A stretch of DNA of 64,000 nt from Chloroflexota bacterium (lineage in GTDB: Bacteria > Chloroflexota > Dehalococcoidia > SHYB01), in contig VGPF01000008.1 of assembly GCA_016875535.1 (NCBI GenBank), forward strand, positions 1 through 64,000, in the 5' to 3' direction. Position numbers and translations under genes: made by a program. The notes beneath the pieces are model-generated. The model was not told where the DNA came from. It searched no databases and saw only the letters and a list, made by a program, of their open reading frames with translations. The stretch's first letter is position 1; each line of letters starts with the position of its first letter. Positions 8,966 to 14,232 of this stretch are shown piece by piece.

Positions 8966-9029
8966 AAAGTATGACTGTGCTTAGTAGTCATACTTCAGCA
9001 AAAAGTCATACGAATGACCGGAGTCATAC
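8966..9029. promoter_or_regulatory. Operator array: AGTCATAC repeats before vapC
   Basis: AGTCATAC occurs three times in direct orientation at 8986, 9004 and 9022, exactly 18 bases apart. GTATGACT at 8969 is an inverted copy. The first two form a perfect 11-bp dyad, GAAGTATGACT (8966-8976) with AGTCATACTTC (8986-8996). The array ends one base before the antitoxin-like ATG, the usual place for autoregulation of a toxin-antitoxin operon. Confidence 0.7.
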
Positions 9030-9030
9030 C

Positions 9031-9117
9031 ATGCCGACAAAAGTCGGAACCAAATGGCAGGTTGTCATCGAGAAGGATGTGCGGGAGAAGTACGGAGGTA
9101 ACCGGAACAAGCCATGA
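9031..9117 (+). CDS. Miniature AbrB/MazE-like antitoxin (28 residues)
   Basis: A 28-codon ORF whose residues 2-22 (TKVGTKWQVVIEKDVREKYG) resemble the first two-thirds of an AbrB/SpoVT DNA-binding domain (T-x-V-x-x-K-x-Q-V-V-I-P-K-x-x-R). The rest of the swapped-hairpin fold and the toxin-binding tail are missing. Its stop overlaps the vapC start as ATGA. It is either a truncated antitoxin remnant or an unusually small functional one. The intact operator array just upstream argues that something still binds there. Confidence 0.55.
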   Translation: MPTKVGTKWQVVIEKDVREKYGGNRNKP

Positions 9118-9515
9118 CCGGATTCGTTGACACGAACATCATCGTCAGGTACCTGACGAATACGCCCCCGGACCTCGGGGAGGCCGCGTCCCGGATCCTG
9201 GAGCGAGAGGACCGGCTGTACCTCACCGACGCCGCCTTAGCTGAAGCGGCGTATGTGCTCACTTCGTATTACCGACTGCCGCGGACAACGGTAGCAGACA
9301 GCCTCATCCAACTCTGCCAGCAAACGAACATCGAACTCTTCCGCCTTGAAAAGGGCTTTGTGCTTCAGGGACTGTACCTCTGTCGTGAGTCAGCCAAGGT
9401 CTCCTTTGACGATGCCCTGATCTGGGCCGCCGCCAGAAGTAGCGATATCAAAGGGGGTTACACGTTTGACAAGGACTTTCCTCAGGCCGGCATCGAAGTA
9501 TTGGGGCTAGGGTAG
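9114..9515 (+). CDS. vapC: VapC-type PIN-domain ribonuclease toxin
   Basis: A 133-residue PIN domain with all acidic metal ligands visible: D6 (VDTN), E44, D99/D100 (SFDDA) and D119/D121 (TFDKDF). The family cleaves tRNA or rRNA with Mg2+ or Mn2+. It overlaps the 28-residue AbrB-like ORF by four bases. Codon use is less GC-biased than in neighbouring metabolic genes, consistent with horizontal arrival. The nuclease looks intact although its partner is reduced. Confidence 0.88.
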   Translation: MTGFVDTNIIVRYLTNTPPDLGEAASRILEREDRLYLTDAALAEAAYVLTSYYRLPRTTVADSLIQLCQQTNIELFRLEKGFVLQGLYLCRESAKVSFDDALIWAAARSSDIKGGYTFDKDFPQAGIEVLGLG

Positions 9516-10157: not shown

Positions 10158-10415
10158 TTGTTGGAACGCGGTGAAAGGGAGCAGTAGAGGCCCCTCTTGC
10201 CATCAGAGAGCCGGGGAACGGTGCGAACCCGGTGACAAGAGCCTCGAAGTCGCCCTGGAGCGGCCAAGCTGAAGTCCGGCGCAAGCCGGGCCACTAAGGT
10301 TGGACGGGCTGGCCCGAGATAGCCAAGGAAGGGCCCCGCCGGATGTGGAACCGGAGGGGAATGAGGGTGGTACCGCGGGAATCGCATCCCGTCCCTTGGT
10401 GGGACGGGTTTTTTT
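10158..10415 (+). promoter_or_regulatory. T-box riboswitch, probable valine specifier (GUC)
   Basis: The T-box sequence AGGGTGGTACCGCGG is at 10364-10378. A terminator follows: CCCGTCCC (10388-10395) with GGGACGGG (10401-10408), then seven T. Stem I can be folded: TTGG (10161) with CCAA at the base, AGGG/CCCT, a loop-E motif AGTA/GAA, GAGG/CCTC, CTCTTG/CAAGAG and a CCGGG/CCCGG tip. The codon after the GAA of the loop-E motif is GTC (10249-10251), which would read tRNA-Val. Uncharged tRNA would stabilise the antiterminator and allow ilvBHC transcription. T-box identity is certain; the specifier is from a hand fold. Confidence 0.93.
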
Positions 10416-13748: not shown

Positions 13749-13972
13749 ATGAGTCCTCGCCTTCGAGAATTGAGGGCACAGGAAGTCATACAGGCCTTCC
13801 AAAGAGCAGAGGAATGGTCAGGCAAGGCAAAGGAGACCACGTTAAGATCTTCATGCCCAATGGCAAGATGCTTGTTTTCCGCGGTGTTGGGGAAGTCGGC
13901 ATCGGCATCTTACGAGATATGATCAAACGAGCAGGTCTGAGCGACGAAGAGTTCATAGGGTGTCTGAGGTAA
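13749..13972 (+). pseudogene. hicA: hicA toxin, frameshifted by a 2-base insertion
   Basis: From ATG 13749 the first 20 codons read MSPRLRELRAQEVIQAFQRA, a normal HicA N-terminus. The frame then runs into nonsense protein. The rest (GMVRQGKGDHVKIF... through LRDMIKRAGLSDEEF) continues in another frame from 13811. Removing the two bases GA at 13809-13810 restores one 73-codon HicA with the catalytic His in GDH. So the gene appears inactivated by duplication of an AG pair. Translation from the internal ATG 13814 would give a 53-residue C-terminal fragment keeping the His. hicB follows two bases later. Confidence 0.75.
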
Positions 13973-13974
13973 CG

Positions 13975-14232
13975 ATGGCAAGAGATCGCAAGTACGCCGT
14001 GGTCCGCGAATACACCATAGTTATCGAAAAACAGGAGGACGCCCGGGGCTATTCTGTCCGCGTCCCTGCCCTGCCCGGCTGTTTTTCAACGGGAGACACC
14101 GTCGCGCACGCCGCAAGGAATGCCAAGGATGCCATCGAGACGTACATCGAGGGCCTGCAGGAGCAGGGCGAACGCATCCCTCGGGAACAACGCCCCAACG
14201 CTTACATCGGCAAAGTGAAGATTGCGGTTTAG
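13975..14232 (+). CDS. hicB: HicB-family antitoxin
   Basis: An 85-residue HicB partial RNase-H-fold domain: YTIVIEKQEDARGYSVRVPALPGCFSTGDTVAHAARNAKDAI is the family core. There is no separate C-terminal DNA-binding domain, as in short HicB forms. GAGGT precedes the ATG, two bases after the broken hicA. It appears intact, so the antitoxin outlives its toxin. Base composition is less GC-rich than the ilv and leu genes around it. Confidence 0.82.
   Translation: MARDRKYAVVREYTIVIEKQEDARGYSVRVPALPGCFSTGDTVAHAARNAKDAIETYIEGLQEQGERIPREQRPNAYIGKVKIAV

Follow-up and report, generated by a model that had tools for sequence, protein, structure and literature searches.

The vapBC locus described here is very probably a decayed type II toxin-antitoxin module, in which the antitoxin gene has been internally deleted and the orphaned toxin gene has stayed intact in sequence. 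It lies in the window, by which we mean the whole 64,000-nucleotide stretch of DNA that was analysed, and we count it as a decayed vapBC with an orphan toxin, not as a complete VapBC module. The features of the locus are collected in Table 1.

Table 1. Positions in the window of the upstream boxes, the vapB remnant and vapC.
Feature	Position	Strand	Remarks
Inverted AGTCATAC box, reading GTATGACT on the + strand	8969..8976	-	Forms a dyad with the next box; inverted copy also in the same-genus locus
AGTCATAC box 1	8986..8993	+	Counterpart in the same-genus locus
AGTCATAC box 2, at about the -43 position of the family	9004..9011	+	Family box RGTYATAC at this position
AGTCATAC box 3, at about the -24 position	9022..9029	+	Overlaps the GGAG ribosome-binding site of vapB, 9020-9023
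vapB remnant (AbrB/SpoVT-type antitoxin), 28 codons	9031..9117	+	About 22 N-terminal residues and a short C-terminal tail
GGAGGT, possible vapC ribosome-binding site	9094..9099	+	Read from the sequence; 14 nt before the ATG, in the retained tail
vapC, 133-residue PIN-domain toxin, sequence-intact	9114..9515	+	PF01850; D6, E44, D100, D119

A truncated antitoxin gene upstream of vapC

The position of the antitoxin gene, directly upstream of vapC and overlapping it, is occupied by a 28-codon open reading frame (ORF) whose product is MPTKVGTKWQVVIEKDVREKYGGNRNKP. The overlap is the ATGA at 9114-9117, as the preliminary description of this DNA had reported, and the same arrangement of the two genes is found in the relatives. 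That description had further stated that the ORF matches only the first part of an AbrB domain and is too short for a normal fold, and both points hold. The stub aligns with positions 2-19 of the 44 in TIGR01439 at 16.8 bits, below the cut-off of 28.3, and has no Pfam match; full-length VapBs align with positions 3-41 of 44 and score above the cut-off. The stub does not contain a complete SpoVT/AbrB DNA-binding domain, and half of the AbrB fold is missing from it.

Residues 1-22 of the stub align with the start of VapB, where 68% of the aligned positions are identical in the same-genus protein. What the full-length relatives carry at residues ~23-85 is missing from the stub, and with it the putative C-terminal toxin-binding region. 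Relative to the same-genus VapB, the net loss amounts to 64 codons (~192 bp) and is in frame. Because they stand directly before vapC, the remaining residues of the stub are, by position, the old C-terminal tail. Within this tail, REKYG resembles the ends REKFG, KERYG and KEKFG of relatives, a likeness that in sum is equalled by 8 of 1000 shuffles. The last 10 residues, EKYGGNRNKP, resemble the tails of relatives no better than chance (200 of 1000 shuffles), and therefore the signal is confined to REKYG. The stub also carries a second lesion, the substitution G9W in the KGQ motif, at a glycine that is invariant in 34 of 34 relatives.

Full-length antitoxins in related loci

The closest comparison is offered by G001, the sole other genome of the genus in our comparison, in which the locus occupies the same position, after the genes for an LLM-type oxidoreductase and an alpha/beta hydrolase. 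Two of our loci, L004 and L043, are this one record (CAMAVV010000018.1). It shares with the window the gene neighborhood and the set of three direct and one inverted AGTCATAC boxes; its VapC is 62% identical to that of the window, and the start of its VapB is conserved to the degree given above. However, its VapB is a full-length AbrB-type protein of 92 aa, its boxes are spaced at intervals of 20 and 19 bp instead of 18 and 18, and its vapB stop abuts the vapC start, whereas the genes in the window overlap. A full-length vapB at the same place in a syntenic close relative suggests that the copy in the window is a pseudogenised antitoxin gene.

The same length recurs more widely. The VapB of a same-family genome also has 92 residues, and those of all 34 non-redundant relatives with a readable antitoxin have about 82-99; no short form was found among intact relatives, and the internal vapB deletion was observed in one genome only. 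These further loci were obtained by searching more widely, in 393 genomes of the class and in the GTDB contig collection, with antitoxins extracted by script; the loci without an antitoxin readable in this way were L022/L064, which lie too near a contig end, and L066, which has an internal stop. A scan of viral contigs found no viral carriers of the locus.

In the predicted structure of the same-genus VapB, residues up to ~45 make up an AbrB-like core, and a helix follows at 67-85 in the C-terminal part. The model is of moderate quality (pTM 0.38), and its Foldseek E-values are weak, with AbrB, SpoVT and MazE domains as the best matches. Mapped onto this predicted fold, the deletion takes out strands 28-43 and helix 67-85.

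Locus L066 (~2150-2890 of JAHBVG010000035.1, Caldilineaceae) is a second decayed member of this vapBC family, with damage in both genes. Read by eye, its vapB is interrupted by a stop codon at about residue 65-70, and its VapC lacks the aspartate matching D119, with FYQRF in place of FDxxF.

Origin of the truncated gene

The preliminary description had proposed a comparison with close relatives for a longer antitoxin and a check for an assembly frameshift, and had taken a full-length AbrB gene at this locus as the mark of a sequencing error. Such a gene is indeed present at the same locus in the same genus. The difference, however, goes back to the loss of ~192 bp from inside the gene with the frame kept, not to a frameshift, which makes a simple sequencing error unlikely. 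We also considered a frameshift on its own terms and rejected it: the 83 bp before vapC hold no longer AbrB frame, and what is missing amounts to ~192 bp.

It is improbable that the deletion is an artefact of assembly or amplification, in which case the true genome would carry a full-length vapB whose 192-bp segment was lost in assembly. Although the assembly is fragmented into 86 contigs, the only repeat capable of collapse spans a few codons, far below the assembly word length, and we found no good match to the missing segment elsewhere in the genome or on another contig. An artefact would be in keeping with the full length of all readable relatives and with the likewise disrupted hicA, which belongs to another toxin-antitoxin pair of the window, but neighboring long ORFs, ilvB and ilvC among them, show no damage, and the separate G9W change would be left unexplained.

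The VapC toxin

The product of vapC matches PF01850 over positions 2-118 of 120 (E 8.8e-14) and is the PIN-domain toxin of a VapBC module. Its acidic PIN residues (Table 1) are all present, in agreement with the earlier reading of a complete active site, and each of them is conserved across all relatives scored. Most other conserved positions of VapC are also kept. One window-specific change, R95K, falls at a position that is invariant in 33 of 33 relatives and is a mild substitution.

In a relative-rate test of the window VapC against the same-genus copy, unique changes numbered 17/10, 14/13 and 15/16 with different outgroups. Because this comparison reveals no clear acceleration, the toxin gene does not look like a pseudogene. 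Synonymous sites are saturated between the window and same-genus copies (pS 0.80), and dN/dS is 0.29 against a same-family copy, a figure that does not isolate the branch leading to the window.

The AlphaFold model of the window VapC (pLDDT 95) superposes on PIN structures over residues 1-78 only. The different placement of the C-terminal half may be a modeling artefact. Neither the window VapC nor the same-genus VapB matched any of the PADLOC defence models.

Repeated boxes upstream of vapB

Three direct AGTCATAC boxes and one inverted copy precede the vapB remnant, just as first described. In the window as a whole there are 6 exact matches to AGTCATAC against 0.49 expected, a count that none of 100 shuffles reached; the remaining two, at 13784 and 60893, are both isolated. 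The array before vapB is furthermore the sole case in the 2.5-Mb genome of AGTCATAC pairs 8-12 bp apart. The repeats that an operator of a VapBC module would contain are at hand: the 3+1 boxes of the window, the same set in the same-genus locus, and a related box across the family. The earlier impression that the operator looks intact holds.

Across the family the box takes the form RGTYATAC. Counted from the conserved valine codon of vapB, it stands near -24 in 15 of the 34 relatives (0.026 in shuffles) and near -43 in 13 of 34 (0.03 in shuffles). The two copies form a conserved pair ~19-20 bp apart upstream of vapB, of which the proximal one overlaps the ribosome-binding site. We consider it likely from this conservation that the RGTYATAC boxes are the operator of this vapB family, to which a protein would bind. 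The 18-bp phasing that had been emphasized earlier is exact in the window, with both intervals at 18 bp, but is not a property of the family: intervals in relatives are mostly about 19-20 bp, including those of the same-genus locus.

Other antitoxins in the genome and the 28-residue product

Elsewhere in the genome, which is 98% complete, three AbrB-type proteins score above the PF04014 cut-off. Two of them are encoded directly upstream of other PIN genes, and downstream of the third lies an ORF that, judged by eye, resembles a PIN gene. Restraint of VapC in trans by one of these antitoxins of the same cell, a possibility raised in the preliminary description, would have such candidates to draw on, and cross-interaction between modules is among the topics of a review (PMC10305079). 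Even so, we think it very unlikely. No candidate is close enough to serve as a VapB paralogue acting in trans: against the same-genus VapB, their E-values are at least 0.0085 and reach 0.37, with 26-34% identity, and the AbrB core is all that relates them to this VapB. Nor does the genome hold another VapC of this family, a second array of the AGTCATAC operator or a paralogous module sharing that operator.

It is scarcely credible that the 28-residue product works as a minimal antitoxin, as had also been suggested, or as a short regulator that controls VapC through the intact operator. In favor of such a role stand the uninterrupted frame, its good ribosome-binding site and the ATGA overlap, and the preserved frame, overlap, operator and VapC would also be expected were the stub kept by selection. 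Against it, the AbrB fold lacks its second half, the C-terminal half of the protein is entirely missing, the invariant glycine of KGQ is lost, and every comparable relative, the syntenic same-genus locus included, is full-length.

Other features of the window

A second, damaged-looking toxin-antitoxin pair lies at 13749-14232, between ilvC and a leuA-like gene. Its HicA-like toxin is split over two frames: the C-terminal part corresponds to positions 16-58 of PF07927 (E 1.7e-4), and the N-terminal part is in the other frame. An intact HicB-like antitoxin follows (PF15919, E 5.1e-17). A search of three same-family genomes for the HicA part brought up no counterpart. Additionally, a T-box leader (RF00230, 95.9 bits) is located at 10162-10399, upstream of an ilvB-like gene.

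Discussion

In published work, antitoxins of the AbrB type contact their operators as dimers formed by a complete two-hairpin domain, and toxin binding and neutralisation fall to a separate region at the C-terminus (PMC4803016). The ancestor of the locus would have encoded a full-length AbrB/SpoVT-type VapB of ~92 residues, which presumably bound the AGTCATAC boxes and neutralised VapC. An in-frame internal deletion of ~64 codons (~192 bp) would then have fused the first ~22 codons of vapB with its last few. Lost with the intervening codons would be the latter half of the AbrB fold and all of the putative VapC-binding C-terminal region, while the operator, the vapB start, the ATGA overlap and vapC stayed in place. 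The deletion may have occurred between two REKxG-coding stretches, one at either end of vapB; a deletion between short direct repeats is plausible because REK-like stretches are found near residue 18 and at the C-terminus.

The 28-residue product would be expected neither to bind the operator nor to neutralise the toxin, given that the former is the work of a dimer of the complete two-hairpin domain and the latter of the C-terminal region. VapC would from then on be an orphan whose transcription had lost its repressor. As the toxin gene looks intact and its partner is gone, the cell probably tolerates VapC either because of its weakness, poor expression or partial impairment, or because it was orphaned only very recently.

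Among known systems, the vapBC of a Thermus thermophilus plasmid (NZ_AP024930.1, LDO10_RS10840/RS10835) has the same two-gene order with a 4-bp overlap, and its VapC is 47% identical over 97% to that of the window. Its antitoxin, in contrast, has 86 codons and is annotated as a complete AbrB/MazE/SpoVT-family protein, and the module is plasmid-borne. The structurally solved Shigella flexneri VapBC and Rickettsia felis VapBC2 likewise pair an antitoxin of the SpoVT/AbrB class with a PIN toxin (PMC4803016), but there the antitoxin is complete and the toxin is only distantly related. Orphan toxins turn up commonly in genome surveys; in one, of metagenome-assembled genomes, orphan type II toxins outnumber complete pairs in Chloroflexota (PMC12654330). 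The locus resembles these surveyed orphans in having a PIN toxin without a usable partner, and differs from them in that a readable antitoxin remnant and an operator still stand beside the toxin. Our literature search for a truncated antitoxin paired with VapC found no match.

For the family, the RGTYATAC pair provides a testable candidate operator of vapBC, found here mainly in Chloroflexota and Thermus. The locus itself, while it matters little as it stands, clearly captures toxin-antitoxin decay at a stage when the antitoxin has gone first and the toxin still looks intact. Such antitoxin-first loss would not be expected to be tolerable with a potent toxin, which suggests that in this lineage VapC has little potency, is poorly expressed or is impaired.
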